Shown one piece after another: positions 3,660 through 46,469 of a DNA stretch of 64,000 bases. Position 1 is the stretch's first letter, and each line of letters opens with the position of its first letter. The stretch comes from Heliopora coerulea. Lineage: Eukaryota > Cnidaria > Anthozoa > Scleralcyonacea > Helioporidae. The position numbers were made by a program, and so were the translations under genes. The stretch lies in assembly GCA_030142905.1 (NCBI GenBank), contig JASJOG010000071.1, positions 574,001 through 638,000 on the forward strand. The letters are read 5' to 3'. A model generated the notes under the pieces. That model ran no database searches and was not told where the DNA came from. It saw only the letters and a list, made by a program, of their open reading frames with translations.

Positions 3660-3955
3660 AATCTTTTAACCCAATTGTAATGTAGGTGTGCCCCGAGATG
3701 GCGTACATCGACACCAATTCACTGTAATTCCACTTCAGAGAATGTGTGTTAATACACTGGTTCGGTGCGGTCGCCAAGGTTTAATATTAATGCTACTTCA
3801 GTGTAGTGTTAACATTATCCTCTCGCCCACCGCGAGAAGCGCAGTGCGAGGGTACTAATCTCCACGTCCGTGGAGTCCTGTTACACTCGTGGTGATTAGG
3901 GAGAAAAATTTTCGCCTGGTGTATGTTTATATATGTATATATATATATATATATA
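3660..3955. repeat. interspersed repeat, left part, ending in (TA)n
   Basis: The segment around 3830-3930 (gcgagaagcgcagtgcgag, then GGAGTCCTGTTACAC and AGGGAGAAAAATTTTCGC) recurs at 46210-46275 and, inverted, at 46398-46469 and 50810-50848. It runs into a TA microsatellite at about 3930-3955, directly before the hammerhead units. No protein is encoded. It is probably a non-autonomous element whose family I cannot name. Confidence 0.6.
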
Positions 3956-4001
3956 ACTACAGACGGAACCGTTTTGGCCTATTGGGCCTCATCAGTGTAG
4001 T
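3956..4001 (-). ncRNA. type I hammerhead ribozyme, copy 1 (core mutated)
   Basis: Read on the minus strand: stem I strand ACUACA (3996-4001), catalytic box CUGAUGA (3989-3995), stem II GGCC / GGCC with a 5-base loop (3976-3988), then AAAAC where the consensus is GAAAC (3971-3975), a minimal stem III (ACGG..CCGU) and the cleavage triplet GUC (3962-3964), followed by UGUAGU (3956-3961), which pairs exactly with the first stem I strand. The G-to-A change in the GAAA box hits the G12 position of the core, so this copy is probably inactive or strongly impaired. Confidence 0.8.
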
Positions 4002-4185
4002 GCTGATGAGCAGGATGGAGTAGCCTACATTATATAGGCAATTCAAATGTCCCACGCTTGTGGTACATCTAAACCATGCCTGAGCGCTCTACCTAGAGAC
4101 TAGTGAGCGTGCGCAAATGCACTGGCGGCATGACTCATCCTGTAGAGCGCTCAATATGAACCAAGAGGCCATAGAGCGATATCTA

Positions 4186-4231
4186 ACTACAGACGGAACC
4201 GTTTCGGCCTATTGGGCCTCATCAGTGTAGT
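4186..4231 (-). ncRNA. type I hammerhead ribozyme, copy 2 (core intact)
   Basis: Same architecture as copy 1, with every conserved core element present on the minus strand: ACUACA (4226-4231), CUGAUGA (4219-4225), a GGCC/GGCC stem II with loop CAAUA, GAAAC (4201-4205), a very short stem III closed by a UU loop, GUC (4192-4194) and UGUAGU (4186-4191). Self-cleavage is predicted between the complements of bases 4192 and 4191. Such a short stem III is typical of hammerheads thought to act as dimers (family knowledge), which suits the tandem arrangement. All core residues are directly visible; activity is inferred. Confidence 0.87.
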
Positions 4232-4385
4232 GCTGATGAGCAGGATGGAGTAGCCTACATTATGTAGGCAACTCAAATGTCCCACGCTTGTGGTACATCT
4301 AAGCCATGCCAGAGCGCTCTACCTAGAGACTAGTGAGCGTGCGCAAATGCACTGGCGGCATGACTCATCCTGTAGAGCGCTCGAT

Positions 4386-4490
4386 ATATATATATAGAGA
4401 GAGAGCGCTATATATATGGATATATATATATATCCATAGACTCCGGTCACTCAAAAATGCCGTGTGCAAGCTCGGAGACTGGTATGTTGT
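4386..4490. repeat. (TA)n and right part of the interspersed repeat
   Basis: TA-rich simple repeat with a gagagagcgct interruption, then tccatagactccggtcac and the bases after it to about 4480. The same unique segment occurs at 46310-46346 directly after the left part of the repeat, with no hammerhead units between. This segment therefore closes the repeat that the retrozyme-like dimer occupies. Confidence 0.6.
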
Positions 4491-7995: not shown

Positions 7996-8880
7996 CACAG
8001 AGTAAATAATCAACCAGAGGTCCAACTCGCGGTAAAATTAGTCCCAAATTTTTTATCTGCATGCGCTGGCCGCCATGTTCCTGGCAAGTTCCCTCAGCAG
8101 TTTTGACCTCATACGAATTTTTGCCATTTATATGTACACAAAGTGAAGTTTGATTGTAGTTCTAAACTGATACATTGAAATTAGATTTTCAAACCTATTG
8201 AGGGGTATTTGTTCAGTAAGCTTACAAAATAAAATTTACTCGAAAATTTAAAAATATCGTACGAACGTGTTGACAACGCTCGATGGATTCAAACATGTGC
8301 TGAATTCTTGTTAATCCTACCACGATTTTAAACAAGTCAAAAACTGTTACAGTCAAACCGTATGTTCGTCTATAGCCAAGTTTTCGATGTTGCGTAGCAA
8401 CAATGCAATCTTCATTTAGCAAGTTCGTCAAGGAATTTGCAACTTGCAAGTCAACCGAGAAGCATATTACCCGAAGGGCGGACAACGCAACATCAGATAA
8501 AACATGATTCAAGTTATTTCATTTAAGTACCTCACAACATGAATCATGTTTTATCTGATCTTGCAATGAAGACTGCATTGTTGCTACGCAACATCAAAAA
8601 GTTGGCTATACACGAACATCCGGTTTGACTGTAAAAGGTCAACTGGTATACATGTGGTTATCAGCAATTTTGTTGCTTGCCTCTTCTGGCCTTGCGATCA
8701 TACTTAAGGTTGACGAAGACGGTAAAACCACTTCAATTATGCAAGAATTCAGTTCAGACGAGCACGAAAGTTATAGAACACATACCTACACTCGGCGAGC
8801 GCTAGACCACTGACTTAGAGGACAGTGGGCTAGACGCTTGCCAGGAACATGGCGGCGTTTGAATTAATGAGATTCAGGAG
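7996..8880 (+). repeat. left arm of a large inverted repeat
   Basis: From the motif CACAGAGTAAATAATC (about 7998) this arm is matched, nearly base for base in reverse complement, by 10815-11688. It starts with an end motif containing accagaggtccaac, holds GCCGCCATGTTCCTGGCAAG near 8068, an embedded 282-bp MITE at 8350-8631, and the inverted form of GCCGCCATG... near 8838. The open frames in it (such as 8222-8512, whose identical mirror is 11169-11459) cross the MITE and look non-coding. The end motif also occurs at about 7568 (same orientation) and 10411-10445 (inverted). Confidence 0.8.
8350..8631. mobile_element. 282-bp MITE, TA target duplication (copy 1)
   Basis: Terminal inverted repeats of about 65 bases begin CAGTCAAACCG and end CGGTTTGACTG, flanked on both sides by TA (8348-8349 and 8632-8633), the signature of Tc1/mariner insertion. 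An inner stem (CAGATAAAACATGATTCA and its complement) lies near 8491-8560. No coding capacity. It sits inside the left inverted-repeat arm, with its twin at 11050-11331. Confidence 0.85.
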
Positions 8881-10814
8881 GCAACATGCGCGAGGACACA
8901 AACATCAAAACTGGCGACAATGAGTTGGACCCATTGAACACTAAAAAGACTGGAACGATACCTGCAAATTGTTTTTTGAAGCCATCATGGAGGCTGACCA
9001 CTGATCTCTAAATAAGGCTGGATAGAGTTACTGGGCTCAAGAAGTGAAGCCGGCAGTTATGGAGCGGCGGTCATATTGGAAGGACCCAACCAGGCACCAA
9101 ACAATATGGCGTAAATAGGAGTTGTAGCGGTTAAAACGGCATTTTTCGCCAATTTCACAAAGGTTGAGATGACGTGACAACGAAATTAAGGTTTTTAATC
9201 TTATTTTAAGTAATAAATAAGAATTATGATTTTTTTTTTGTTTCGTAAATGCTATATTTTGCGAAATGCACCCGTCTGTATATTTGCTTCAAAATTCGTT
9301 TAAGGACTATCGAGTCTGTAAGAGACTCTTGTGTATTTGTTTCTTTGTGTGTTTTTTAAGTAACCCTTATTATTTGCCGATTTTCTGTGATGTGTTTTGC
9401 CAAAGACCTGATTCATTTGTTGCTGATAAAACTCCAGGATGTATTAAACTGCAAATTTCCCGCTGATGCTGTACATGTGTTTGAACACTTGAATCGAAAT
9501 ATGTAGAAATCGAACTTGGCCGTTTATTCGAAGAGTTCTAACATGAAACGTCATAGTGAGGTTTTCGTGGTCGTATTTCAGTGAGATATTCTTGTATATG
9601 ACTTGCCTTCACTGTCTTAAAGTTAACATGTTGATTTGGATCCTAGATTTTAGTGCTAATGCCAGGTCAGCGACACACTGATAAACACCTTTCCTTATCA
9701 ATCTTCATCTTTGTACTTCAGTAGTTTGAACATCTATTTCTCAGGTGATAGATGGGTTGACACATGTAACCTTTGCTTTACCACTTAGTTGCTGTTGCTT
9801 AGTGGTTAGAGATTCCCACTAGTAACCATGATGATAGGGTTCATTTGACTCAAGAAGTCATAAGCTTTCCAGTTTTACACAGGGCTTGTTTGCATGTCTG
9901 TTTTTCTGGGTATATATTTAGTTTTACACCGCAATTGAATCTTCCTGTAGTACATTGCTATGTACTTGATAAGGGCAAAAATATGACTTTAATCAACAGG
10001 AGAATCTACCACACAGCAGATTGAGCTCTGTGAACACTTTAAAGAAAAAACCTAACTAATTTTCGTTTGACTTGGACCCAAAAGTTCTCCCTGAACTCGA
10101 ACTCCCAATGCAGCTTCAAACATGTAGGTCAATTTGCAGGTCATCCCAGTCCCCTACGCAATAAAACAAGCAACCTATTGCGAAAAACATCGGCCAAATT
10201 TCGAATTTTTTAACAGTTTTCTTTTTTATCCATAGTAAGTACAGGAAACTGTCGGTAGTACTGCATATTTGTCAGAATTCACTCTCAATAAAAAGTAAAT
10301 TCAAGTTTTTCCCACGCGTGTTTTTGACTTACATGGCTGCTCCCATGTCGGCTTCATTCAATCGTGAAGCCTGGTACTACGAGGTAGCGTTCCAGTCGTT
10401 TTAGAGTTCAATGGTTGGACCTCTGGTAGATTATTTACTCTGTGTCTCCGCGGTCGCATGCACATGAGTTTCTTGGAAGCAACTGGGGACGAGTCAGCAA
10501 TATGATCTCAAGCAGTCTGTGTGAGCGATACCAATATGATTATATTTACAAAGAAATGAATTGTAAACATGTCTGGGATGTCACAGAATGCGTTAACAGG
10601 GTTTTGCAAGTCCCACTGTCAAATAGTAGCTTATATTTGTGTTCCAAAACACTTTTAAAAATAATTTCACAACACGGAAGACAGAAATACAGCAAATCAA
10701 TAACAATGTGGGTTTTTATGCTAGCCTGGTCGGCGGGCTTGGATGTTCAAATGCGGGTCTGACCCGCAAGATGCGGATCACTTGGGACCTATGATGTTGC
10801 CTCGCGCATTTCAT
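8881..10814. other. spacer of the inverted repeat, no gene recognised
   Basis: About 1.9 kb of largely unique sequence. Short matches to the arm ends occur near 8880-8965 and 10405-10445: both carry ttggacc, then ccattgaac and gactggaacg in matching order but opposite orientation. A tRNA-like A box (TTGCTTAGTGG, about 9795) and a weak B box (about 9837-9848) suggest a possible SINE at 9790-9920. No protein recognised. Confidence 0.5.
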
Positions 10815-11688
10815 TACTTCAAACGCCGCCATGTTCCTGGCAAGCGTCTAACCCACTGTCCTCTAAGTCAATGCTCTAGGGCTCGCCGAGTGTAGGTATG
10901 TGTTCTATAACTTTCGTGCTCGTCTGAACTGAATTCTTGCATATTTGAAGTGGTTTTACCGTCTTCGTCAACCTTAAGTATGATCGCAAGGCCAGAAGAG
11001 GCAAGCGACAAAATTACTGATAACCACATGTATACCAGTTGACCTTTTACAGTCAAACCGGATGTTCGTGTATAGCCAACTTTTCGATGTTGCGTAGCAA
11101 CAATGCAGCCTTCATTGCAAGATCAGATAAAACATGATTCATGTTGTGAGGTACTTAAATGAAATAACTTGAATCATGTTTTATCTGATGTTGCGTTGTC
11201 CGCCCTTCGGGTAATATGCTTCTCGGTTGACTTGCAAGTTGCAAATTCCTTGACGAACTTGCTAAATGAAGATTGCATTGTTGCTACGCAACATCGAAAA
11301 CTTGGCTATAGACGAACATACGGTTTGACTGTAACAGTTTTTGACTTGTTTAAAATCGTGGTAGGATTAACAAGAATTCAGCACATGTTTGAATCCATCG
11401 AGCGTTGTCAACACGTTCGTACGATATTTTTAAATTTTCGAGTAAATTTTATTTTGTAAGCTTACTGAACAAATACCCCTCAATAGGTTTGAAAATCTAA
11501 TTTCAATGTATCAGTTTAGAACTACAATCAAACTTCACTTTGTGTACATATAAATGGCAAAAATTCGTATGAGGTCAAAACTGCTGAGGGAACTTGCCAG
11601 GAACATGGCGGCCAGCGCATGCAGATAAAAAATTTGGGACTAATTTTACCGCGAGTTGGACCTCTGGTTGTTTATTAACTCTGTGAGT
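10815..11688 (-). repeat. right arm of the large inverted repeat
   Basis: Mirror image of 7996-8880, ending at the motif with ctctgtg (about 11686). The match includes the MITE, the GCCGCCATG... motifs and both mirrored open frames, with only scattered substitutions and small changes. The minus-strand LINE tail (TCAA)n begins immediately beyond it at 11691. Confidence 0.8.
11050..11331. mobile_element. 282-bp MITE, TA target duplication (copy 2)
   Basis: Same length and termini (CAGTCAAACCG...CGGTTTGACTG) as the MITE at 8350-8631, inverted with its arm, again flanked by TA. Since both arms carry it at the mirrored position, it was probably present before the arm was duplicated in inverted orientation. 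Confidence 0.85.
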
Positions 11689-15996: not shown

Positions 15997-16200
15997 GATT
16001 GAATAATTATGCATGCGATTTGATTGGGTAAATGAAACACTATGTAATTTGATAATGATATATAGCACGGGGAACAATAATGCATAGAGGACAATCAGTA
16101 CACCGGGACAGTTACCGAGTATAGCACATGGGACATTGATCTATTATTCTACTTTCAATAAATATAAAAAAAATATATACAAAGCAGTAGCGGTATTATA
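15997..16200 (+). repeat. 5' LTR, truncated
   Basis: Matches the 3' LTR except that about the first 21 bases are missing: similarity starts at gattgaataattatg and the preceding bases belong to the adjoining LINE. It ends at cggtattata before the primer-binding site. Confidence 0.85.
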
Positions 16201-20618: not shown

Positions 20619-20840
20619 TGTAATAATGTGATCTAATGTGATTGAATAATTATGCATGCGATTTGATTGGGTAAATGAAACACTATGTAATTTGATAATG
20701 ATATATACCAAGGGGAACAATAATATATAGAGGACAGTCAGTACACCGGGACAGTTACCGAGTATAGCACATGGGGCATCGATCTACTATTCTACTTTCA
20801 ATAAATATAAAAAAATATACAAAGCAGTAGCGGTATTATA
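20619..20840 (+). repeat. 3' LTR
   Basis: Complete LTR of 222 bases beginning TGTAATAATG and ending TATTATA. It carries AATAAA near 20800 as a likely polyadenylation signal. Confidence 0.88.
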
Positions 20841-28385: not shown

Positions 28386-29099
28386 TCAGGCATATAGTCG
28401 TTTAATTATTAGGTCATAGTCATTAGAAACTAAACATTTATAGCCATTTTCTTCATATCTCTCTATTAGCTGCTTCTGTTGGTCTATAATAATGCCATTA
28501 CACTGAGGGATTTTGAACTCTATACATAGACCATTATAATGCTTATGAAGATTTTGAATATACAGATCTGGTTGATCTTTCATATAACCCTTTTTAAACG
28601 ATTTGATGCGTTTGTCTTTCGTGTCTTGATTCTCTCCAAGTCCAGCTGTCATTAATATATCTGGATAAAATCGCCTACTGAACTGAACCACTTTAGTATG
28701 TAGGTCATATTCATCTTGTATTTTAAATGCCAATGTATTGGGGTTGTTGAACATCCTATAGTGTCCATACTTCCTTATAGATGGTAATACTTGATATAAT
28801 ACCCATTTTTGAAAATCTTTTGCACTCTCTTATTTAGAGGAGAATATCAATGCATAATGTCCGGGTTCTGATATAAATATTGCCTTCTGAACACCCCGCC
28901 GCGGTGGCGGGTATTCGAAAGTCCTCTTATATTCATCATCTACATGATTTCTAATAGCTTTGTCTGTATCTTTATAACCCAATGCCATTGCAACATCTTT
29001 TTCTTGAACCAAGAGTTGTTTAGCATCTATATGAGTATCAATTGAAACGTTTAGTTCCTTATTATCGAATTTCTTGAATGTGATTGACATATTATACAC
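28386..29099 (-). pseudogene. BRO-N protein fused to a VRR-NUC-like nuclease, one stop
   Basis: Residues 1-89 are a BRO-N domain (AMALGYKDTDKAIRNHVDDE and EPGHYALIFSSK). A TAA (28830-28832) follows, but the same frame continues with the usual BRO-N ending (FQKWVLYQVLPSIRKYG) and then a nuclease-like C-terminus with QPDLYI, CIEFK and DQQKQLIER, a PD-(D/E)XK/VRR-NUC pattern. One base change would account for the stop. BRO-N domains bind DNA in large DNA viruses; the nuclease fusion suggests DNA processing. Its paralogue lies next door. Confidence 0.78.
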
Positions 29100-29131
29100 T
29101 GTTATATAATATGACTTTATATAATTTTACT

Positions 29132-29773
29132 TTACTCTATGGAAATATTATTCTTAATGTGTTGAAAAATCTCATTTATTATATCAAATACATTAAATCC
29201 TTTCACATCTGGATTATACCTGATGAATTTACACTTAAGTTTTCTTTCGAAATATTTTTGCCTTCGTATCTTCTTTTTTAGATCTCTATGTTTATGACAA
29301 AATTCATCACATTCAACAGCTAATTTATGATCAAGAAAATACAAATCTATTCTATGTTTACTTATAGTATGCTGAAGTATCATATTTTCATCTCTGAATG
29401 CCTTCATAATATATTCTATGGTTTCTTGCTCCTTATAAAGTACTTTTTCACAAATATCTATGTCGAATGTTTTAGCAATATCAGCAGCTTTAGACATTCT
29501 ACTTTTCAATACTAATTGTTTTACTCCATTTTTATTTATTAGATTAGTATGGGGTTGGAAATTTTTAATGAACCCTTCTACATAATCCTTAAATTTTTCA
29601 TACTTTGTCTTATTATCATCATCTACATGGTCATTGATAGCTTTTCCTGGTCTTTTACGTCCTAGTGCTTTAGCCACATCATATGCTTTGAACCATACGT
29701 CTTCACCATCTGTATACGTTTCGATTGATACGTTGAAATCCTTATTCTCAAACGTATTGAATTTTAGTGACAT
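29132..29773 (-). CDS. BRO-N protein with C-terminal endonuclease-like domain
   Basis: An uninterrupted 213-residue frame. The N-terminal BRO-N domain (FKAYDVAKALGRKRPGKAI, about 29-46) is followed by a linker and, from about residue 120, a restriction-endonuclease-like domain: RIDLYF (Asp143), AVECDE (Glu154), then RQKYFERKLKCKFIRYNPD. This resembles the Vsr/DUF559-like domain paired with BRO-N or MSV199 domains in virus-derived genes. Upstream, TATATAACAG stands about 15-25 bases before the ATG, as it does in the neighbouring paralogue. Probable role: DNA binding and cleavage or repair. Intact while many neighbours are broken. Confidence 0.82.
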   Translation of the reverse strand: MSLKFNTFENKDFNVSIETYTDGEDVWFKAYDVAKALGRKRPGKAINDHVDDDNKTKYEKFKDYVEGFIKNFQPHTNLINKNGVKQLVLKSRMSKAADIAKTFDIDICEKVLYKEQETIEYIMKAFRDENMILQHTISKHRIDLYFLDHKLAVECDEFCHKHRDLKKKIRRQKYFERKLKCKFIRYNPDVKGFNVFDIINEIFQHIKNNISIE

Positions 29774-29838
29774 ATTAAATTCTGTTATATAATATATCTT
29801 TAAATGATGACTCCTTTAAGCCATCATATTCTATATTT

Positions 29839-30069
29839 TTAATCAATTGAATCGAGACTATTTTTGGGTGGCCTGTGATCAGTTCTTTCGATTTTGACTT
29901 TTTTAGGCTCCTCTTTAATAGTCTCTAGTTTTTTGGTCTCTCTTTCATAATCTTTTCTTGTGCAGTTCAGTGAACAAATTGCGACTGCTGTTCCTAAGAA
30001 TCCAAATACAAATCCATAATTGATTTCAAATCCAGAACTATCATTCTCTGACTCTATTTTATCACGCAT
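29839..30069 (-). CDS. small single-pass membrane protein
   Basis: 76 residues: an acidic N-terminus, one membrane segment (FVFGFLGTAVAICSL, about 20-35) and a long basic, lysine-rich tail. The start overlaps the region just after the stop of the upstream small gene (30078). Function unknown. Confidence 0.6.
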   Translation of the reverse strand: MRDKIESENDSSGFEINYGFVFGFLGTAVAICSLNCTRKDYERETKKLETIKEEPKKVKIERTDHRPPKNSLDSID

Positions 30070-30077
30070 TTTTCTCT

Positions 30078-30221
30078 CTATTTTGCAGTCTTGGAAGTAG
30101 CAGCTAAACGTTTACCAGCTTCTACTCTTTTAGGGTCTTTTTCATTTTTTAATTTTGTTATTTTAGGTGCCACTGATTCTTCATTTTTCTCTTTAGATAT
30201 TTTAGGTGTTTCTTGACTCAT
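30078..30221 (-). CDS. small basic protein (47 aa)
   Basis: An ATG at 30221, preceded by TACTATATAG, opens 47 codons, very lysine-rich, ending in NEKDPKRVEAGKRLAATSK. It is placed between two other small genes on the same strand with 8 bases before the next start, so it is likely a real gene although short. Possibly a nucleic-acid-binding or core peptide (inference). Confidence 0.5.
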   Translation of the reverse strand: MSQETPKISKEKNEESVAPKITKLKNEKDPKRVEAGKRLAATSKTAK

Positions 30222-30307
30222 CTATATAGTAATGCATATTTTATTTACAGATTATCTATAAGACATCTATGAGATCATATTTGAGACATCTGTGAGATAG
30301 TCTGCAA

Positions 30308-30450
30308 GTCAACCACCACCTCTTTTATCACTTGGCTTATGTGGTTTTGGTTGATTCTCTAAATGTTGTCTATTGAGATCATGTAGCACACACTGTCTAT
30401 CTCTATTGTCGTCTTTTACAACAACGTACAAAATCTCTGATTCTTTTGAA
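30308..30450 (-). pseudogene. short hydrophilic frame without start
   Basis: About 47 codons of coding-like, polar sequence (VVVKDDNRDRQCVLHDL, ending KPSDKRGGG) without an ATG in frame. An ATG at about 30466 lies in another frame. Probably a frameshifted small gene of the element. Confidence 0.35.
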
Positions 30451-30598
30451 AATATTCCTTAATTTAGGATTCATTATATATTACATTATATATCATTTCT
30501 TGTTTTTCCTACTGTATAAATATATCAATGAACCACCAATTATTTAATATAAATGATCACCAATGAAAATTAAACCTTTACTGGAGGCTTCTTCTATA

Positions 30599-31282
30599 TC
30601 AGTCCACGGTATGACATCTCTTTTTTTCTGCAGGAGTTAATTTTTCTGCTTTTCTTTGTTTATGTTTGTCATCGCGTACAGCACCTGATCCACTGCGTTT
30701 TAGACCGAGAGATAAACCAGTTACTAGAATAATTATTGTTAATCCAATTGCTGTTGCTATTCCTGATCTTTTTGATATTTTATCTCTCAGTATTTTTTGC
30801 CAATTATCATAATGGTATCGTATATCGCCAACTATTTGATATGATTCGTTTTGATCGGCTATATCACCATTAGTTGTCTTAAATCTTCTGACTGGTCGGA
30901 CTTTTACATCATTTTCATTATAAAAAGGCTCACCATAATATTCGATTTCGTAATTTGTTACACCTTCACTCAATGTTTTTTTCAATTGTGAAATCTTGTT
31001 TTTCCATCGAATATTTAATTAATCCCGTACTGTAGATACTCTCTCTATAGTTAGAATGTCTTCAATGAATAAAGCTATATTTTTGCCATCATGTGAGCGA
31101 TCTCCAAAAATCTTATTTAATAGTTCATTTTTATCTTCCGCTTTGTTTAATGGTAAACTTGAAAATTCTAATAATCCAGTCTCTTCTGTTTTACCACCAC
31201 CGAAATTTCTCTCTTCTTCTTCCAGCTCCTGTTCTTCTTGTATCCAGCTATTATCACGATCTCGTAACTCATATTTTTCCAT
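30599..31282 (-). pseudogene. single-pass membrane protein, interrupted by one stop
   Basis: Two open pieces (31019-31282 and 30599-30985) lie in the same frame, separated by one TAA and a stretch that stays open, so they were probably one gene of about 228 codons. The N-terminal part is acidic; the C-terminal part has one membrane helix (GIATAIGLTIIILVTGLSLGL in two steps) and a basic tail. The start ATG overlaps the stop of the upstream gene as TAATG (31280-31284). Possible virion membrane or maturation factor; function unknown. Confidence 0.55.
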
Positions 31283-31755
31283 TATATTTTAGAGTATAAT
31301 TCATCATATTTTTTACTCACTCCATTGATAGAGTGGCATAAATCAGTAACAATATCATCGATTATTTTTAGATTACTCAGTAATAGCGATTAATCTTATG
31401 GTATACCAGGCAAATATGATTTCAACTGTGTTAGAATTTCTTGATATGATGTGCAAGCGAATCTACATATATCTGTCTTAGTTTTGATATTACTTTTTGA
31501 TAAACTTTTGTGGGTTAATATACCTTGACCGCTAATACATCCTAAAATAATAGGATTCAAAGTGATAGTACCAGTTACTCTTAACCCTAGACTTACCATA
31601 TTCACAGACAGATTTACTTTCTTCAGTTTCTTGTACTTCCATTTATAACACGTGTATAGCTTGTGGTAGTACACCTACCATTGCTTAAGTTTCATAATCT
31701 CTTCATCTGATAAATCCTCGCTGACGTAATTAAAATTGATACAGTTTTTCTTCAT
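31282..31755 (-). pseudogene. conserved-looking helical protein, three in-frame stops
   Basis: A single frame of about 157 codons carrying TAG at about 31676 and two TAA near 31390-31398. Pieces before, between and after the stops read as one continuous protein: DLSDEEIMKLKQW, then a basic YKWKYKKLKK region, a hydrophobic TITLNPIILGCISGQGILTH segment, and NLKIIDDIVTDLC at the end. A membrane-associated or adaptor role is possible; family function unknown to me. Confidence 0.6.
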
Positions 31756-31772
31756 ATATTTTTGGACTATAT

Positions 31773-32811
31773 TTAATAGTCAAAATCATCATGGTCAATA
31801 TCAAACCAATTGCTAAGTACGTGATGATGTAGTAGAATGTCTTTTTGAGCTATCTATTTATCTTCGTATAAAGCAAAAAATGCTATATCACCTAACAGAG
31901 GGGCGACACCATTTCAATTTAGGCCACCTAATGTCATCTGTTTTGAACCAGTTGTACGTTTACTCTCAAAATTAGCAAGCTTCTTACCATTACAATACAC
32001 TGAACTGTTATTACCAGCTGGTGTTGTATAGTTATCCCAATGTACTGATAAGCATATCCATTTGTTTATCTCTCGAGGATTTGCCTTCGTCTTATAAGCA
32101 CCTATAGGATATTTACGTGAAACAGGATTGCTACCAATAACATTGAAATTATTTTTATCACCCGACACGATTAATTCACTATTTGGACTGAAAGATCTAA
32201 ATTTATCATATCCTCAATTATAATCTCCGAAGAGACCATTCCTCACCCAATACGTATTCGCAAAAAATGATTTTAATCCATATACGATGAAGATATTAAC
32301 AATGCTCTTTGATCCACTAACTGTATTTAAATTCATATCACTAACCATACGTTTTTGATCCGTCAAACTTTAGAAGACATCTATAATTGATTCTTTCAGA
32401 TTACGTACTAAATGTAGGTTCTAAATTTGTGGTGTTTTAAGCAGCATCATTACCTTGAATTGTCTGATCTATTACCTAACATACTTTCTCTGTTGTGGCA
32501 TCATAAATCAACACACAATTATTTATCCCTTTATCAAACCTATATACACAAGAACTATAATTTTTTAAAATACTCCCATAGAAGAGTTTCAGATAGCTGT
32601 TTTCTGAAGTCAGTTATTGTTACAAACTTATCGTCTGTATATTTCTTTCCAATAAGCTGATCATCAAAAATAGGATCAGGATTTCCTCTAATGGCCAATA
32701 GATTCATATGTATATCACCCTTCATAGTTCCTTCATTTATAGATAGCTTATCAGCGTTAAGCTTTCGATTTCTTCTTGTGTTTTATCAGTATAACCATAA
32801 AATAAAGACAT
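31773..32811 (-). pseudogene. fibre/attachment candidate with LamG-like C-terminus, broken
   Basis: The start (ATG at 32811, after ATATAATATAGAAA) and about 18 codons are in one frame; later parts shift frames several times. The C-terminal 31914-32168 frame and its continuation to 31773 have a concanavalin/LamG-like pattern (KWICLSVHWDNY, SVYCNGKKLANF, DIAFFALYED). In virus-like elements such sandwich domains sit on surface proteins, so a fibre or attachment role is an inference. Multiple frameshifts and stops: not functional. Confidence 0.55.
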
Positions 32812-32819
32812 TTTCTATA

Positions 32820-33201
32820 TTATATGATATATTTTGTTATAAAATACATTGTTATTCCTGACACAGCAAATAATAGTATTAAATCATTTTCATCATCGGT
32901 CTTTTTTTCTTTTTCTTCTTTTTTTTTTTTCTGTGCTGAATGGGTTTTCTTTGAGTACTGTCACTTGGTGTTCCTTATTTGGTTTTTCATCCCTTAAAAT
33001 TTCCATTTGTGGCTGTTTAATAGGCGCCCTATTTATATCCTTATTTAAACCAAATTTCATATTCTCATTAGATACTTTCAGTTTATTGTTATACCCTGGA
33101 ACTGGTTTGTTTAATAAGATTAGATTGCTTTGCAACAACCATAGAGAGGGACTAATAGCGACATTAAGAACCACACTGGTGTCAGTCACTGCTTGATTCA
33201 T
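32820..33201 (-). pseudogene. basic protein with C-terminal membrane anchor, frameshifted
   Basis: A 102-codon frame (32893-33201) ends in a run of lysine/arginine codons at a poly-T tract. Just after the tract another frame gives DDENDLILLFAVSGITMYFI and a stop, a C-terminal anchor. Slippage in the homopolymer is the likely break. Function unknown. Confidence 0.45.
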
Positions 33202-33214
33202 ATTGTTTATTCAA

Positions 33215-34248
33215 GTTGATGTATTATAGTTGATTATCGAGTCTTCCACAATAGATCGAAACTATTCTTGTGTTTCTAATGCACTTGCTCTATTACTATA
33301 AATTGATTGTTTTGTCCTTGCTTGACTTCCTAATGTGGAATAAATAAAGGCTTCAATATTCTCATTTGTATATTGAATACCTATTTTTGTTAACCCATTG
33401 CTCGTAACAGGTATATATCTTTTTTAATCACTCTGTAATGAACTGGGAAATAGCTGATAGACAACTCCACCTCTTGTTCTATATATTATATTGCTTCTTA
33501 TGTGTTCAATAGTTCTATAACACTTTCCAGCTGAAAACTCTCTTGATATAGCTGACATCTTTTCTTGTCCTTGCATTCTTCTTATCAACCTTCTAACAGT
33601 GAAATATAAATGGAATCGCATTAGTGATGTTATAATCGGATGGTGTTAGATGCTGTATGGAAACTCCACAGCAATATGATGCACAATATACTGCAAAACG
33701 TACTTGATAATAACTTTCATTATCATCCCATTCAGCTTTATTATAGTCTGTGGTAATATTCAATTTTGGACGTTTTGACAGGAAATACTCTTGGTTGTTG
33801 ATATATATTCTGAAATTCTCAATATGGAAAATTCAATATGTAGTGATCTGGATATTTATCAGTGAGACGATATCCTTCAACATATTGTATATTTGACTCA
33901 GGAATTTTCAGTATTGTACCATTTGATTGTCATATTTTTGGGAATCTTTCTGCATTACTTATTGGGTTTCTTTTTATTGTCGTTAGATTATCTGTAACAG
34001 GTTTTTCAGGTTTGTTGACTGTTCTTCCATAAAGATCTTTTTTAAATTCTGAATTATTTTTAAATCTTGGATTCTTTTATTAATATCCAATCTAAGTATT
34101 TTGGTGTGACTTTCTAATAAATATCAATAGATTTCAATTTACCATTACTATCTAAGTTACATCCAAATTCGAATTTATCAAGTTTTGCATTAGGATATTC
34201 CTTTTTAAATATCTTTTCTGCTTGTTTTCTTAACTTTTTAGTCACCAT
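33215..34248 (-). pseudogene. structural-type protein candidate, heavily frameshifted
   Basis: The ATG at 34248 opens 44 codons with a charged N-terminus (KLRKQAEKIFKKEYPNAKL). Later segments in other frames include DDNESYYQVRFAVYCASYC (about 33680-33735) and the 33424-33621 frame (RFHLYFTVRRLIRRMQ). The mix of beta-rich segments and size (about 340 codons) suggests a virion or scaffold protein, but I cannot assign it. Broken in several places. Confidence 0.45.
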
Positions 34249-34275
34249 ACATAATATATCATATATTATATACAT
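34249..34275. promoter_or_regulatory. 27-bp bidirectional A/T promoter region
   Basis: The start codons of the two central divergent genes are only 27 bases apart (34248 on minus, 34276 on plus). The spacer is nearly palindromic and made of TATA-like blocks (ATAATATATCATATATTATA). Both transcripts must start inside or immediately next to it, with very short leaders. TATA-like sequences at a similar distance precede most other genes of this element. Confidence 0.6.
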
Positions 34276-34946
34276 ATGAAGGAACTAAGTGATTTGATTG
34301 ATGGCTCCTCAAAAGAATTGTACCTGGATGAGTCATTTTTAATAAATAATGATAATCCGTTACTCAAAAGGCTACTTTATTCTGGAATTATACTAATATC
34401 ATTGATGAGAACAATGAATTAACATATAACAGCAACAAAAAGACGATACAGAAAGGTCATTGGACATTTAATATGATCAAGAAGGAGATTGAGAGTTATG
34501 GTAGCGTTACTTTGGTGTCTAATGAATATGATGGAACGTGCTCTATTACTAGTTACAATGTAATAAATATAAAAAGTATAGGACCCATATTAGGATTTAA
34601 CAATGACCAAGCAATAAACGCTAATACAAAAACAAAAAGCGGTAACTCAGTCAATATAAACAATGGGTTGCAACACATAAATGTCACTTGTACTTTGGTC
34701 AAAATGATTGATAATATAAATACAAATGGCAAGAGAAGGAACGTTATAGCAGTATTACCGATAACAACTACACAGTCATTGAAAGGTAGAGTCCAGCATT
34801 ATTTCGACATTGAATCCAGAGTAACAGTTGATAAGGGTGTTACTAATAAGATCAATTCCAAAGTTAAGGACCAAGATGGAAACACAATAAGTATCGGTAA
34901 AGTACTATTAGACTTATATATAATTTTGTGCAACGTATATGAATAA
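34276..34946 (+). pseudogene. beta-rich conserved element protein, frameshifted
   Basis: The first 48 codons end at a TAA; after a frame change the 157-codon piece from 34473 continues in protein-like sequence (GSVTLVSNEYDGTCSIT, VLPITTTQSLKGRVQHYF). A regular beta-strand pattern suggests a virion protein, but no enzyme motif is visible. The downstream integrase ATG lies inside its last codons. Confidence 0.55.
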
Positions 34947-35902
34947 AGATATAGAGACAGAACAAGGGTTGAGAGATATCTATTATAATCCTAAAACTGG
35001 CTACTAGTCTGTGGAAAGATTATATTGGTGAGCAGATACAAATGGATCTCATTGACATGGGTTTATATAAAAACAAAAATAAAGGTTATTACTGGATATT
35101 AACATCTATTGAAATTCTTAGTAGGTATGCATTTGCTATTCCTGTTTACAGAAAAGATACAAATAATATGACAAAAGCAGTCACAGAGCTATTGAGGCAA
35201 TTTAAAGACAGATTGGATCATTACCCTAAATTAGCTCGATTTGATGATGGAAAGGAGTTTTACAATGTTGGTGTAAAATCGTTGTTAGAAAAACATGATA
35301 TTAAGTATTTCTCCACAAACTCTGATAAAAAGGCAGATGTTGTAGAAAGATTTAACAGAACATTTAAAAGTTCTATGTGGAAATACTTCTATAATAAAGT
35401 AATTTATAAATGGATTGACATATTGGACCAATTGGTGAATAATTATAATAATACTAAGCACAGCATCATATAAATGAAACCAAAGGATGTTAGCAAAAAG
35501 ACTGAAGATGAAGCTTGGACCACTCTATATGGTCATCTCTATGCTGAGCCACCATTACCTAAATTTAAGGTAGGAGACACGGTCCGAATATAAAAATATA
35601 AAAGCACTTTTACTAAAGGTTATGAAGCCAATTTCACTGAAGAACTGTTCAAAGGGGTCAAGGTTACACGTGGTGACACAACTGTTTATGAAATAGAGGA
35701 TCTAGAAGGTGAGCCAATTACTGGTAAGTTTTATGAAGAGGAGTGGTCAGGTGTTCATAAAAAGGATGATGTCTATAAAGATGAAAAAATACTAAAATGA
35801 AAAAACGTAAAAGGTAAAAGGATGGTTCTTGTCGAATAGTTAGGTTGTGATAGTAAACATAATAGCTGGATCCCTGAGAGTGATATAGAAAATATAGAGT
35901 AA
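34939..35902 (+). pseudogene. Polinton-type integrase with chromo-like tail
   Basis: The intact core frame (35042-35473, 143 codons) has the DDE triad: MDLIDMG (Asp2), FDDGKEFYN (Asp68) and VVERFNRT (Glu102), a D,D35E-like spacing. The N-terminal zinc-binding region is largely deleted between the NKDIETEQG start (34939) and 35041, with stops. Downstream, after a stop at 35473, an SH3-like segment (FKVGDTVRI) and a chromodomain-like end (near 35800-35900, NSWIPESDI) follow with further stops. The enzyme would insert the linear element DNA; this copy is inactive. Confidence 0.85.
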
Positions 35903-35914
35903 TATATCCATATC

Positions 35915-36522
35915 ATGGCTGAAGGAGGATATGATTTTGACATGCATAGCTTGGATTAAAATTACCCTGGATTTAATTCTGGATTTCAATGAACTTCATG
36001 AAGAAAATGATTTACTCAATTAACGTATTTATGAAATAGATAACCATATTTTCAATGATAATTTTTCTCATAAAAATGATTATAAAGACTTAACCAATAG
36101 ACGACAATACGTAAATAATGTCATATTGGGTAAATATAAAAAAGATGAATCATCATTCACAGATAATCCCGATGGTACAGTAACTTTCACTAGTAAAGAT
36201 CCATTTGAAGAGACTAGTTGGATAGATGAAGACTTAGATTACAACGAAAAAGACAGTGCAATTGTAAAAAAAAAAAGGCACTAAAGATAATATCAGAAGC
36301 TTCATTGGCAATATATTTCGAAATGATGGCGAATTTGGAGACAATAAAAGAAAAAGATGGATTCAGAATGATTTTGTCAAATTAACATGGTCTGCACTTG
36401 CATTAATGAAAAATGGTGATAGACCTTTATTAAATAATGAAGAGGGTCATATTATCCTCAGAAACATATCATATTCTCGAGGAGGAGGAATAGGACCTGG
36501 TAAGGATTGTTTACAACTATAA
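35915..36522 (+). pseudogene. acidic unidentified protein, broken
   Basis: Starts with ATG GCT GAA after TAATATATCCATATC. Pieces in changing frames: an aspartate-rich central part (EETSWIDEDLDYNEKD) before a poly-A tract near 36267, then a C-terminal part ending ILRNISYSRGGGIGPGKDCL. Its stop overlaps the next start as TAATG (36520-36524). No family recognised. Confidence 0.45.
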
Positions 36523-37575
36523 TGAGCTATAAGGGAACTGATATAGTCGAATTAAATACAACCACAAACAAATTCAAATTAAAAAATGAAGAAACAAAGG
36601 AAGGCAAATAGTTCGAAAATTTACTCAAAGAACTTTTTTAAAAAAATAATATACTAGTCAATAAAAGAACTGAAGAAAATAACATTCCAGAAGAACAAGT
36701 CAGAAATATCATCAGTAATATCGCTATGAAGATAACCCCAACCCAACCTCTGAACAGATCAGTGAGTTAGTCAAGCAAAATCCCTCAAAATTTGTATATT
36801 CAGGGAGGAAATTAGAAAATCTAAGGAATGATTTAAATCTCATACCAAAAAAATTTTATGCTGGAGAGCAACGTAATGGTGTAGATGATAGTCTTTTTCC
36901 GAAAATACCAGAAGATATAATAGATCAAATTGAATCAGACTCCATAGAAAAAATACATACTAGATTAGAACAAAAAGCAACCAACATTGCAAACCACTTT
37001 ATTAGTGATCAGGAGTTAAGAGAATTCTCTGGATTTTTAAATCCCGTTGGTGATACCAATATCAAAAATGAAATTCTAGATCAAGCTGGAAATGAATACA
37101 GATTAAAGGCTCTAAGGGAGACGGAACAAAAGATAGAAACTCAATATAAAAACATAACTAAAACTGCATTTTCAAAATCTGATTACATACGCACAACAGA
37201 AAAGGGTGAAAAACCTGAACATGAAAAAGGTGAGAGTATAATCATAGAAATTGCTAATGATAATGAGTCCATCAAGCCCTTTCGAGTTTAGTGGAATTCA
37301 AAAAATGGGCTAAAGAAAATCTAATAGGAATATCCCCTCTGGCAATCTCTGTTGCTGGAATAATCACTACTATTGTCATTGGTGCTAGAAAAGTATTAAT
37401 AAAAGGTGCACAAGCGACTGGTAAATTTGCTAAGGCTGTCTATAACCTGGGAAAGAAAATTGGAGTATTATTAGCACCAATATTAATTGTCATCGCTCAA
37501 GCATTGTCATGGGGTGCTAAAGGTCTTGCATGGTTGGCTTCTAATTTATGGGTTCTAGCACTTGCTTTTGCATGA
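36522..37575 (+). pseudogene. large polar protein with C-terminal membrane region, frameshifted
   Basis: After the ATG at 36522 about 29 codons are open; a long frame without ATG is open from about 36735 to 37290 (polar, ending in ESIKPFRV), then a shift leads to 37291-37575 with two membrane segments (ISPLAISVAGIITTIVIGA and VLLAPILIVIAQAL) and a third at the end (GLAWLASNLWVLALAFA). Overall about 340 codons, probably a membrane or internal virion protein. Function unknown. Confidence 0.55.
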
Positions 37576-37694
37576 TTTGTATATGACCAATAGAAAGAGC
37601 GGAGGAAGAAATAAAATGTACCTCTATATACACACAAATGAACATAACATATTAAGATAAAGTTTAAAAAAATTCATATTCATTTTTTATATAA

Positions 37695-37860
37695 ATGAAC
37701 TTTGAATGTGATATTTGTTTGACCAGTGAACTGAAAAGTTTATCGCAATTAAACTGTAATCATTTATTCCACTCTGATTGTATCAATAAATGGTTACAAC
37801 AAAAAAAATAAGTGTCCATTATGTAGAGCAGAATTCAATTATCGAAATAGAAATCGATAA
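37695..37860 (+). pseudogene. RING-H2 finger protein, frameshift in poly-A
   Basis: Short gene of about 55 codons with CDIC near the start, CNHLFHSDC in the middle and CPLCRAEF at the end, i.e. a RING-H2 pattern with all eight ligands visible. The last pair is out of frame after a run of eight A residues at about 37801-37808, so one inserted or lost A breaks it. RING proteins are E3 ubiquitin ligases; virus-borne versions target host proteins (family knowledge). Confidence 0.75.
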
Positions 37861-37924
37861 AATAGAAAAAGAATGCATCATAAAAAGAGAAGGAAAAAAT
37901 AGAATAAATAATGAAATCTAAAAA

Positions 37925-39216
37925 TTGAAAATTAAAGTAGATGATTTACAATCAAAAGAGAAATCAATAAAATCTACATTAATATATACACAAGTGAACA
38001 GAACTGAGAATAAGTTGGAACCTGGCTTTAGACGAAGTAATGTGAGCTGTATCAAAGCTGATAGAACTAGACATGTGACCACAATGAACCCTTATAAAGC
38101 ATCACCTGGTGAAGAGCTATATATTGAAATTCAAAAACTTAAACCAGACAGTTGTTTGGTTCCCGGGTTATTACACTTATTTTTCGATTGGAAAATCAGC
38201 AACACTAAAACTCGTTTCCCAAACAATCTTTCCAAACTTCTACAAAAATGACTCCAGATCAGGCTGGTTGGTGAAACAGTTTACGATAATAATGATGAAA
38301 GTTTATACAGCGTTCATAAAGACCTTTACAAAACGAAAACTCAAAGGGATAATATAATTCAATATAGTATTGCATCTGTGAATCTTAGAAAGCTAATAAG
38401 TAAAGACCACTCTGGAGCAACAAGTGGAGATACAACAAAAGTATCTGAAAAACCTGTTTGATATTTATGGTACAAAGCAGAAGATATGTTTGGATAGGAT
38501 TATATCAGACCATGGTTTGACTCTGATAGTTTGATATTCTGATATAGTTTGATTGTCTGATAATTTCTCAAAATAGTGCCACAAACAGGTCAGACTGCTG
38601 GAACTTATTTTTTGGAAAACCTTGAGTTGGAATATGAAACTATTGAAACCAATCTATTGCCAGAAGTGTTTCATCACTTTATGGCTCTGGTCGTTCTCTA
38701 TCACATGAGCATGTAACTCTTATGAACACTGTAGTATGGGCTGCTGCATCAACTTTAATTAATGAAAATATTAATATTCGTCCAAAGTCTGCGAAGGCAG
38801 TAGCTCCTTTGTTTGCCAAAACATCTAGAACGGATAGTGAGGAGTTCATATATCCGAATATCAACAGTGTAAAGGTAACAACTGAAGGAGTACCAAATCA
38901 AGTATATTCACAAGGAATTCCAAAATCTCGTTTCTATGATCAGGCTAAAAGACTATTAGGAAACAAGATGGAAAAAGATGAATTCATGACACCACAGAAG
39001 TTCTACAAGGATAAGTTTGCTCTTGTTATTTATCTGAGGTCAAATGAAGAGTTGGATAATACAGGACGTGGTAAAAAGATTGTATACGCCCAAAACGGTA
39101 TCCTACTGGAGATCAAAAAGACTGCCCACACAGGAAACATCTACTGTAACATGTTTGTAGTATCTGATGGTCTAGTTAATTTCTCAAACAATGATCTCCA
39201 AAGTATCCAATACTAA
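37925..39216 (+). pseudogene. large structural-protein candidate upstream of the ATPase
   Basis: An N-terminal piece (37925-38251) and the 164-codon C-terminal piece (38722-39216) frame a region that can be followed through several stops, frameshifts and probable deletions (38250-38720). The end (FVVSDGLVNFSNNDLQSIQY) is intact and stops 20 bases before the ATPase start. Size and its place directly before the packaging ATPase make it a capsid-type candidate, but I see no decisive motif, and it could be another virion protein. Confidence 0.5.
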
Positions 39217-39236
39217 TTATAATGTAATATATACAG

Positions 39237-39839
39237 ATGGAAACACCTTTTAACATGATCATTTGTGGCATGACAAACTGTGGGAAAACGTCCTATTTGT
39301 TAAATATGCTGGAAAAACAATTAAATAAACATTTAGATTATATCATTTTAATATGTCCAACATTCTCATGGAATAAAACTTATCAAGAATGGAAATATAT
39401 CAAAAATTCTGATTTGTTTGCCATAAAGTGTTATCAGGACAAAGTAGACAAAGCAATACATATTGTGCAGGAAATCTTTAAAGGGACCAATAGTTTGACT
39501 ATATTGGATGATTGTGCATGCAGTTACGATGTCAAAAATAGAACAAGTGAGTTAGTTGAATTACCTTTTTTCAGCAAGGCATTATAGTTTATCAACAATT
39601 GCTATAACCCAGCATTTAACAAGTATATCTAAACCTTATAGAGACAATGTAGCTAGAGTAATCACTTTTATAATCCTGATGAAGATGATATGAATGTAAT
39701 GTTTCGTAGATACTTAGGTCATAGTGCGAAAAGTGATAGGAAAACAATAATTAAAAAAGTAAAGGATACCAAATACTCTACACTAGTAGTCAATTTACAC
39801 TACTCATACGACTATAAAATCAATACACCGCAAAAATAA
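39237..39839 (+). pseudogene. A32/FtsK-type packaging ATPase, frameshifted
   Basis: Walker A GMTNCGKTS (residues 11-19) and a Walker B-like NSLTILDD (85-92) are clear. The first frame ends at 39587; the next frame continues with sensor-type residues (AITQHLTSI) and an end at 39839. Family members pump DNA into capsids of Polinton-like and NCLDV-type viruses. The start is preceded by AATATATACAG. One shift near 39585 and another near 39670 break it. Confidence 0.82.
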
Positions 39840-39859
39840 AATGTGTCAATATATAGAAA

Positions 39860-40387
39860 ATGCCAAGACTCAAGAATACAAAACCTGAAACCATTGATGA
39901 GTTATTCGAAGAAGTTACAACTGCAGAAAATATTGTAGATGAGGAAATCAATAATTTATTCAGTGATACTCAAAAACCTGAAAACGCAAAACCAGAGAAG
40001 GTTGAATTGAAATCTGATAACACTGATTATGAAAAAAAGAGAGATGAACTTTTAAAACTGGCTGAAAATGGAGATTTAGATGAATCTGTTGTTTATATAA
40101 AGAAGGCCAGTCAGAAGGTCATCAGTAAACTATACACTGAATATGAACGAAAACATATGGAAAAGGCTAATGATTTCTTAACTGATCTATTAATAAGTAA
40201 ATTTGCTAATGCTTTGGGAGGTTTCAATGCAATCGAGTCACCAGATGTTTGGTCAAAAGAATTACAAAAAGATGAATTGTTAAAAAGAGATGTTTACTCG
40301 TTAATCGAGAAAATGACACCATTTGTTCCATTCTTTAGGAATTTGTCAAGAGGGATTACAACAGCAAAGCATGTATACGACCATTAA
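39860..40387 (+). CDS. intact 175-aa acidic helical protein
   Basis: Complete frame starting 20 bases after the ATPase stop, with ATATATAG just upstream. The acidic N-terminal half is predicted helical and low in complexity (KNTKPETIDELFEEVTTAEN), and the C-terminal half is more globular (DLLISKFANALGGFNAI). Conserved gene order next to the ATPase suggests a morphogenesis role, but no family is recognised. It is one of the few undamaged genes in the element. Confidence 0.65.
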   Translation: MPRLKNTKPETIDELFEEVTTAENIVDEEINNLFSDTQKPENAKPEKVELKSDNTDYEKKRDELLKLAENGDLDESVVYIKKASQKVISKLYTEYERKHMEKANDFLTDLLISKFANALGGFNAIESPDVWSKELQKDELLKRDVYSLIEKMTPFVPFFRNLSRGITTAKHVYDH

Positions 40388-42632: not shown

Positions 42633-44624
42633 CAGTGGCAGTCAAAAGTAGTCAATAGTTTTTTTGAGGACACATTTTTTGACATAAATTTTTATCCAAT
42701 CGGCAGTTTTGGTTCATTCTTTTTTTGAATGACACGCCATTACCCTTGCTACAAGGTTACTGCAGTGTATTAATATGAAAACGACATAACTAAGAACTAT
42801 AATCAAAAATCTAAAAATGCGAAATGTCACCCCCTCTTCCTGCAAAAAGTGCGTGTTCTATGTCATTTAAGTTTTGCTCTTATAATACTCGATGACCTGT
42901 TACAACATGAAAACACAATATTATTTGCAGTGAATAACTTTTTTAAAATTCAAATGGTTTGCTGCCTTTTCCGGGCCACACACCATTTAAAATACTTGGT
43001 GTGACCACCCTTTGCCTTGATAACTGCTTCAATACGTATATGCATTGAATGGGCCAAGCTTCTCAGCATCTTTTGAGGAAGAGCTTCCCATTCAAGTTTC
43101 AGAAGCGCAAAGAGCTCGTCTTTGTTTGAGGGCTGGGGTCGGGAATAATAAATTGTGGTTTTCAACTCCTGCCACACACGGTCAGGCGACTGTGATGGCC
43201 AACCTGCGAGGACTAAGTACCTAGCACGTTTGAGATACTTTTTCACTGACTTTACGGTATGTTTCGGATCATTGTCTTCTTGAAGTATTACGTGATCTTT
43301 GCCTCCAAATTGCATTAGCGATGGCCGCATGTGATGCACTAAAAATTTGCTTTTATACATTCTGATCCATGATGCCTTCAATATGGTGAATATGCCCGAC
43401 ATCGTTGGCAGTGAAATAGGCCCAAACCTGAATCTTTCCTCCACCGTGCTTTACAGTAGGTGTCAGACATTCCGCATTGAATTCCTCACCAGGACTCTGC
43501 GAACATATGTTACTCCTCATTGTCTGAGGATGCTAAATGTGGATTAGTCTGTCCAAAGAACCCATTCCCACTCCTTTTCAGTCCAGTGCTTGTATTTTCT
43601 TGCGAATGCTAGTCGGCGGCGTCTGTGAACAGGTGTGAGCATTGGCAATTTTCCAGCAACACGCCCCATCAGGTTAGCACCACAAAGGCGACGGCGAATA
43701 GTCTTTACACTAGCGTGAACGCCTACTTCTTCCCAGTCCTCTCGTAGCTTTGAGTAGGCTTAAAGCGATCTTTAAGAGATCGCCGTTTGAGGAAACGATC
43801 ATCGCGTGGGGTGGAAAGTCTCTGCCGCCCTGAGCACTAACGGTTAAGATCACTACCAATGTCCTCAAACCTTCTTTTCGCATTACATACAGAAGCTTGA
43901 GACATATTGGTTCTTGATGCCACTTTAGTTTGGCTGTATCCTTCCGCAAGAAGAGCCCTGGCAACAGCTCTCTGTGCTTCAGTTGTCCCCGGTTTCTTTG
44001 CCCTTTTCTTCTCTTTCCCCTCCAAGAGGCGGACGACATTTATTTGCTGAGGACTACAAACACTGATCTTAAATTGTGAGGCGATGTCTTTATTCTTGCA
44101 CCCATTTAGTTTCATCTGGCGAATTTCCTCTTTTTCGTTATCTCGAAGATGTCTGCCAGCACGCAGATCATCGTGGTGAACCAGTTGAGATGGCATGTCT
44201 TGAATTTTGTTGTCCAGAAGCCAAACCAGGATTGTATAATCTTCCCCAAAATATCGAATTCAGTCGTCTGGTGTAGAGGATTTCTCTTGTATTTCTAAGG
44301 CTGTTATATATTGCACTGAATTCGTCAGAATTGTCGGACAAGATATTTTTGGTGACCTCACCAATTCTCAGCCATTATTTGTAGTTTACACTAAAGTGAT
44401 AGTTATTTTTAATTTGCAAGAACGGGGTAACAGTTCGCATTTTTAGATTTTTGATTATAGTTCTTAATTATGTCGTTTTTATATTCATACACAGCAGTAG
44501 CCGTGTAGCAAGGGTAAAGGCGTGTCATTCAAAAGAAGAATGAACCAAAACGGCCCATTGGATAAAAAGTTATGTCAAAAAATGTGTCCTCAAGAAAACT
44601 ATTAACTTTTTTTGACTGCCACTG
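42633..44624 (-). mobile_element. Tc1/mariner transposon with ~195-bp inverted ends
   Basis: Both ends start CAGTGGCAGTCAAA and the inverted match continues for roughly 195 bases on each side (42633-42830 and 44430-44624) with scattered differences. A TA precedes the left end (42631-42632); the right flank reads TC, presumably a mutated TA. The interior codes for a broken Tc1 transposase on the minus strand. Confidence 0.88.
42950..44196 (-). pseudogene. Tc1-type transposase, broken
   Basis: The N-terminal 119-codon frame (43837-44196) has paired helix-turn-helix motifs (NEKEEIRQMKLNGCKNKDIA and a second near ALLAEGYSQTKVASRTNMS). The C-terminal frame (42950-43444) has the second catalytic block EDNDPKHT, but the third block reads SPDRVWQELK where the family has a few more residues including the catalytic acidic one. 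The enzyme is therefore dead both by frame and by active site. Confidence 0.85.
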
Positions 44625-46204: not shown

Positions 46205-46345
46205 CATTGATCATAGAGTCGTGCGTGGAGTCCTGTTACACTAGTGGTGACTAGGGAGAAAAATTTTCGCTTGGTGTATGTATGTTTATACACATGTATA
46301 TAGGTATATCCATGGATTCCGGTCACTCAAAAATGTCGTGTGCAA

Positions 46346-46385
<40 letters not shown>

Positions 46386-46469
46386 ACATACATACACAAA
46401 ACGAAAATTTTTCTCCTTAGTCACCACGCGTGTAACAGGACTCCACGCACGTCGAGATTTGTACCCTCG
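46205..46469. repeat. interspersed repeat, copy without hammerhead units
   Basis: Starts with CGTGCGTGGAGTCCTGTTACAC (written here as 20-base-scale motif; core GGAGTCCTGTTACAC) and ends with its complement GTGTAACAGGACTCC near 46430-46448, giving inverted ends of about 60 bases around a (TA)n core at 46347-46385. It contains the tccggtcactcaaaaatg segment also found at 4443. It is interrupted at CCTCG by the LTR element and resumes at 50810-50848. Confidence 0.65.

Follow-up and report, generated by a model that had tools for sequence, protein, structure and literature searches.

The closest described systems in anatomy are the non-LTR retrozymes of metazoans, whose units measure 220-245 bp in Acropora millepora, a coral, and in two jellyfish 233 and 227 nt (PMC7229834). 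According to the same source, most invertebrate retrozymes self-cleave efficiently whereas vertebrate ones need dimers, and their GC content is put below 45% in one place and below 50% in another. Within the hammerhead core, the role of general base is assigned to G12 (PMC6155905). Core mutants can show modest activity but are as a rule taken to have no biological function, and core changes are occasionally tolerated, as reported in PMC3088659.

Here we analyse a 64-kb window (the whole stretch of DNA under study) containing a tandem array with two type I hammerhead motifs on its minus strand (Table 1). Because the hammerhead type, the tandem units, the unit size, the lack of a long open reading frame (ORF), the predicted self-pairing of the RNA and an empty site all agree, we consider it very probable that the array is a retrozyme-like insertion, non-autonomous and without coding capacity, in the genome of an animal. 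The preliminary description had likened the locus to metazoan retrozymes, and this reading is upheld in part: the type I hammerhead, the tandem 230-bp unit, the missing long ORF, the self-pairing and the empty site agree with it, but one core is changed (G12 to A). The insertion is unusually readable: at a distance of 42 kb the window holds a related repeat free of the array, and one core has changed at a catalytic base.

Table 1. Features of the retrozyme-like locus and its surroundings (window coordinates; a dot marks features given without strand)
Feature	Position	Strand	Details
Retrozyme-like tandem array	3956..4382	-	427 bp; head-to-tail units of 230 bp (1.86 copies)
Complete contiguous unit of 230 nt, circularly permuted	4153..4382	-	Contains the intact hammerhead
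Type I hammerhead, intact core	4186..4231	-	Predicted cleavage between 4192 and 4191; RF00163 32.8 bits; core read directly
Second type I hammerhead, core G12 to A at 3975	3956..4001	-	Predicted site between 3962 and 3961; RF00163 26.3 bits
Candidate lock hairpin CUCAUCAG-CACUACA-CUGAUGAG	4218..4240	-	Perfect 8-nt complement of the catalytic box
Corresponding hairpin of the second unit	3988..4010	-	Sequence identical to the first-unit hairpin
Left flank: arm of a dispersed inverted-repeat element	3865..3955	.	Ends in a (TA)n tract; from repeat matches
Right flank: same dispersed element continued	4409..4470	.	Matches 46287-46346, 53/62 columns identical
Paralogous empty site: array-free related element	46220..46346	.	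From flank matches

A 230-bp tandem array

The array has a repeat period of 230 with 1.9 copies and 96% matches (TRF), and is also recovered as a direct repeat of 209 nt (97%). The copies show 7 differences over 209 aligned positions, two of which (4383 and 4183) lie at the array edges, leaving 5 without them; if one circle templated both units, these 7 differences would postdate insertion. The unit size of 230 bp falls inside the tandem-unit range of metazoan non-LTR retrozymes (~150-450 bp), and no ORF of at least 90 aa, counted from stop to stop, was found over 3956-4382. Searching the 64-kb window with the unit by blastn and nhmmer recovered the array itself and chance-level pieces only, with no further arrays.

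Anatomy of the hammerhead motifs

The preliminary description had reported two 46-base blocks folding as type I hammerheads when read on the minus strand, and most of this anatomy was recovered as described. The blocks (3956-4001 and 4186-4231) lie 230 bases apart from start to start, and each contains a 6-bp stem I (ACUACA/UGUAGU), the CUGAUGA box, a GGCC/GGCC stem II with the loop CAAUA and the cleavage triplet GUC preceding the second strand of stem I. The GAAAC box, claimed for both, is in place only in the block read from 4231 to 4186 (GAAA); the block read from 4001 to 3956 has AAAA instead (3956-4001, GGCCAAAAC), its core G12 being A. This difference between the copies (G at 4205, A at 3975) stands in a CpG context and is a CpG transition. 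Given that core changes are occasionally tolerated (PMC3088659), the G12A copy may not be fully inactive.

Stem III had been drawn as ACGG and CCGU around UU, a form that would require a 2-nt hairpin loop and had to be replaced by a feasible one of 3 bp closing a GUUC loop. As an isolated hairpin, this 3-bp stem has a predicted energy of 0.0 kcal/mol, compared with a predicted -11.2 kcal/mol, including two U-U mismatches, when the stem III segment is paired between two copies. This gap makes dimer action reasonable, and we regard dimeric action of the hammerheads as plausible, although the stem between copies contains the mismatches and most invertebrate retrozymes are reported to self-cleave efficiently (PMC7229834).

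Statistical support for the hammerheads

The preliminary description had named the lack of an above-threshold match to the Rfam type I model as a refutation. The covariance search gave no matches at the gathering score of RF00163 (34 bits), so that taken literally this test fails, the two sites falling short by 1.2 and 7.7 bits. The intact-core match on 4186-4231 has an E value of 5.2e-6 in 1.2 kb and 2.8e-4 in the whole window; the match on 3956-4001 reaches 7.4e-4 in 1.2 kb and does not appear window-wide even with E values up to 1 admitted. Further Rfam entries (MIR4208, mir-297, Alfamo_CPB and others) were set aside, being far below their gathering scores and mostly in TA-rich stretches.

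A relaxed descriptor (minimum 4 bp for stem I and 3 bp for each of stems II and III, second box GAA or AAAA) recovered exactly the two hammerhead sites when both strands of the window were searched, the AAAA option having been added in order to admit the second copy. The same descriptor matched once in 40 single-strand mononucleotide shuffles. The two hammerheads do not constitute independent evidence, because the copies are 97% alike. A looser two-box pattern (CTGANGA, a gap of 10-30 and GAAAC) matched twice in the window against 0.78 expected, so that the boxes alone would prove nothing.

Probable insertion into a dispersed repeat

Sequence related to both sides of the array recurs about 42 kb away. 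On the left, 3865-3948 matches 46220-46309 (77 of 90 columns identical) and 3847-3955 matches 46469-46357 in inverted orientation (87%). The left and right flank matches overlap at the TA-rich segment 46287-46309, with no array sequence between them. Within the 46-kb copy, 46220-46451 forms an inverted repeat (78%); 46220-46469 as a whole is a dispersed inverted-repeat element, foldback or MITE-like, with a TA-rich centre and related to both array flanks.

Because the related repeat at 46220-46346, a paralogous and not an orthologous empty site, lacks the array, we conclude from these alignments that the array most likely arrived as a block, placed into the TA-rich middle of a repeat. Both sides of the array are TA-rich and the longest word that they share is a 14-nt TA run, so no target duplication, which in metazoan non-LTR retrozymes is long when present, is readable. 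The idea that TA-rich targets point to the enzymes of Penelope-like elements (PLEs) gained no support from a literature search and was dropped.

The window holds several other repeat structures and mobile-element-like regions. An 892-bp inverted repeat (7996-8887 and 10794-11685), 98% identical with ~1.9 kb between its arms, carries the same 98-aa ORF twice, in opposite directions. Direct repeats at 15997-16200 and 20640-20840, 95% alike, surround reverse-transcriptase and integrase-like ORFs, probably as an LTR element. At ~28386-40387 lies a cluster that we call Polinton- or virus-like from its content, with two BRO-N ORFs, a Pox_A32-type ATPase match above the Pfam cut-off, an integrase core match just under it (32.1 versus 32.6 bits) and two halves of opposite base skew. 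Between 41696 and 45069, nested inverted repeats (42632-42846/44413-44625 and 41696-41872/44892-45069, each 90%) surround ORFs (42950-44259) judged by eye to be transposase-like; the one scanned among them (42950-43450) has no Pfam match. In two protein searches with retroelement ORFs of the window, considering the best 120 of 7,939 and the best 120 of 254 matches, the few entries with a species name belong to octocorals (Paramuricea, Xenia), a sea cucumber, several molluscs, a bryozoan, a fish and a beetle, none above 48% identity, whereas entries lacking a name go up to 80%. These matches suggest a host resembling marine invertebrates.

Predicted fold of the unit RNA

Folded as a circle, the unit between the two predicted cleavage sites has an energy of -82.7 kcal/mol, compared with a dinucleotide-shuffle mean of -61.1 (sd 4.5), corresponding to a z of -4.8; no shuffle among the 300 reached this energy. 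Folding is likewise good for the opposite strand (z -3.7, again reached by 0 of 300). Folded as a circle, the intact-core unit 4153-4382 has an MFE of -88.5 kcal/mol and 164 of its 230 bases paired; for such RNAs, self-pairing is given as 'above 70%' in PMC4918200. The GC content of the unit is 49.1% or 50.9% depending on phase, at or above the limits published for metazoan retrozymes. The hammerhead is missing from the predicted best fold of the circle.

A candidate lock hairpin

In the intact-core unit, CTCATCAG (4240-4233) and CTGATGAG (4225-4218) are perfectly complementary, and the hairpin that these segments would form was spotted post hoc. It suggests a lock, which we think unlikely: CUCAUCAG, located 7 nt 5′ of the catalytic box CUGAUGAG, would fold onto the box once both are transcribed and would hold the circle uncut. 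Under this same unlikely reading, cleavage would need a switch, by stem I pairing, dimerization or a protein.

Seven of the eight lock pairs are present in the MFE structures of both the intact-core circle and the precursor, and the hairpin is predicted in 12 of 14 growing transcripts of a series started at 4280, the 12 being those of at least 64 nt. The hammerhead-containing fold lies 7.7 kcal/mol above the best fold, a gap equalled in 44 of 200 circles with shuffled surroundings, which makes the energy argument for a lock weak. A perfect 8-nt complement within 40 nt upstream arose in 63 of 20,000 dinucleotide shuffles, or 443 with G-U pairs permitted. With such chance complements in shuffles and an unremarkable energy gap, we rejected the lock hairpin as a proven feature.

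The pattern was also compared with hammerhead-like matches on both strands of 126 viral records, using matches with at least 40 nt upstream. Locks of at least 8 nt occur at none of the 138 hammerhead-like viral matches listed, which are partly redundant and not all confirmed hammerheads (some appear by eye to be without stem III), compared with 22 of 690 random upstream stretches. Upstream complements of at least 6 nt to the catalytic box were seen at 32 of the 138 viral matches listed and in 247 of 690 random stretches, as if locks were avoided. Six viral stretches combining the lock pattern with GAAAC were dropped, since by eye neither stem II nor stem III was properly formed. In the viral loci, ten pairs of hammerheads separated by under 700 nt did not represent tandem repeats (ungapped identity 0.27-0.48).

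In PMC7229834, the hammerhead is predicted to be free in most metazoan circles, with exceptions among those of mussels, and protection is inferred there to come from something other than self-pairing. Under the lock reading, in contrast to the metazoan retrozyme circles of that source, protection at this locus would come from self-pairing, through a short hairpin dedicated to it. If conserved, such a hairpin would simply explain why circular RNAs that carry active hammerheads are not reopened in animals.

Alternative explanations

Plain satellite DNA would imply a local tandem duplication that carried a passenger hammerhead and spread by unequal crossing over, not via RNA. The head-to-tail tandem units speak for it, as does the history of such repeats, which were first described as satellite DNA (PMC6155905). 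The array, however, comprises just 1.86 units, and a paralogous repeat (46220-46346) without any array makes arrival as a block most likely; we regard the satellite explanation as quite improbable. Tandem minimal type I hammerheads also occur in PLEs (PMC7761336), and the array could be a fragment of such an element, derived from pseudo-LTRs with tandem type I hammerheads. Helix III is usually absent there, as described in PMC7761336 and PMC6155905, whereas here 3 bp are possible, at about zero predicted energy alone; as helix III is absent from PLEs usually and not always, the distinction is not a strict test. Nor was a Pfam GIY-YIG match present in the 20 of 83 listed ORFs that were scanned, all 20 of them more than 7 kb from the array. 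RVT_1 matches are found among the same 20 of 83 ORFs, with no PLE type assigned to them. A PLE origin is in our judgement very improbable.

A DNA copy of a viroid-like RNA replicon would be consistent with the size and self-pairing of the unit and with an opposite strand that also folds well. Against it, the hammerhead lies on one polarity only and the array is an insertion within a retroelement-rich, eukaryote-like region, and we consider a replicon origin extremely improbable. Both matches lie below the gathering score, as would suit a chance resemblance to the hammerhead, but all three stems occur here along with the core and the cleavage triplet, and one match in 40 shuffles compares with two, albeit non-independent, copies in this window. 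Chance is, on this evidence, a vanishingly improbable explanation. A retrozyme-like insertion remains the best reading of the locus.

Proposed life cycle and probable decay

The anatomy of the retrozyme-like array, as read from its sequence, fits the DNA-visible parts of the published model, namely hammerhead motifs, tandem units, predicted self-pairing and block insertion. Following that model (PMC7229834), the tandem units would be transcribed, here as the minus strand, and type I hammerheads would cleave the transcript 3′ of GUC to yield 230-nt monomers. A host RNA ligase would circularize the monomers, and the reverse transcriptase of another element would copy the circle more than once round and insert the cDNA.

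Because one of its two cores carries the G12 to A change, the locus is probably a decaying copy. With one intact core, a dimeric transcript would be cut once, in cis at 4192/4191 or at the other site if the hammerheads act as a dimer. Release of 230-nt monomers from the locus is probably poor, since one cut is expected per dimeric transcript and two would be needed.

Comparison with known systems

Plant LTR retrozymes, as described in PMC4918200, resemble the locus in having a hammerhead, no coding capacity, a circular RNA model and pairing that hides the hammerhead in the predicted RNA; they differ in their type III hammerhead, LTRs, length of 600-1000 nt and 4-bp target duplication. PLEs and Terminons, with their minimal type I hammerheads, share the type I topology and the tandem occurrence, whereas here a short stem III is possible and the 20 of 83 ORFs scanned include no recognised PLE gene. 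The retrozymes of newt and axolotl (330-350 bp, formerly satellite DNA) are alike in the type I hammerhead, the weak stem III and the possible dimer action. Their unit size differs, and the stem III loop here is non-palindromic, with two U-U mismatches in the dimer. No relatives turned up when viral and prokaryote contigs were searched by exact pattern and plasmids by blastn, these being collections that would rarely hold an animal element, and the literature search returned nothing tied to this particular element.

The metazoan non-LTR retrozymes described by Cervera and de la Pena (2020, PMC7229834) share with the locus the type I hammerhead, tandem units of ~230 bp from dimers up and a highly self-paired predicted RNA, which here has no long ORF. 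Compared by description, the present locus differs from them in a GC content near 50% and in the change to one of its two cores. Its predicted circle fold hides the hammerhead, whereas in the circles of that account the hammerhead is mostly free, some mussel ones excepted. The element is probably a further member of the published metazoan retrozymes, with one core altered.
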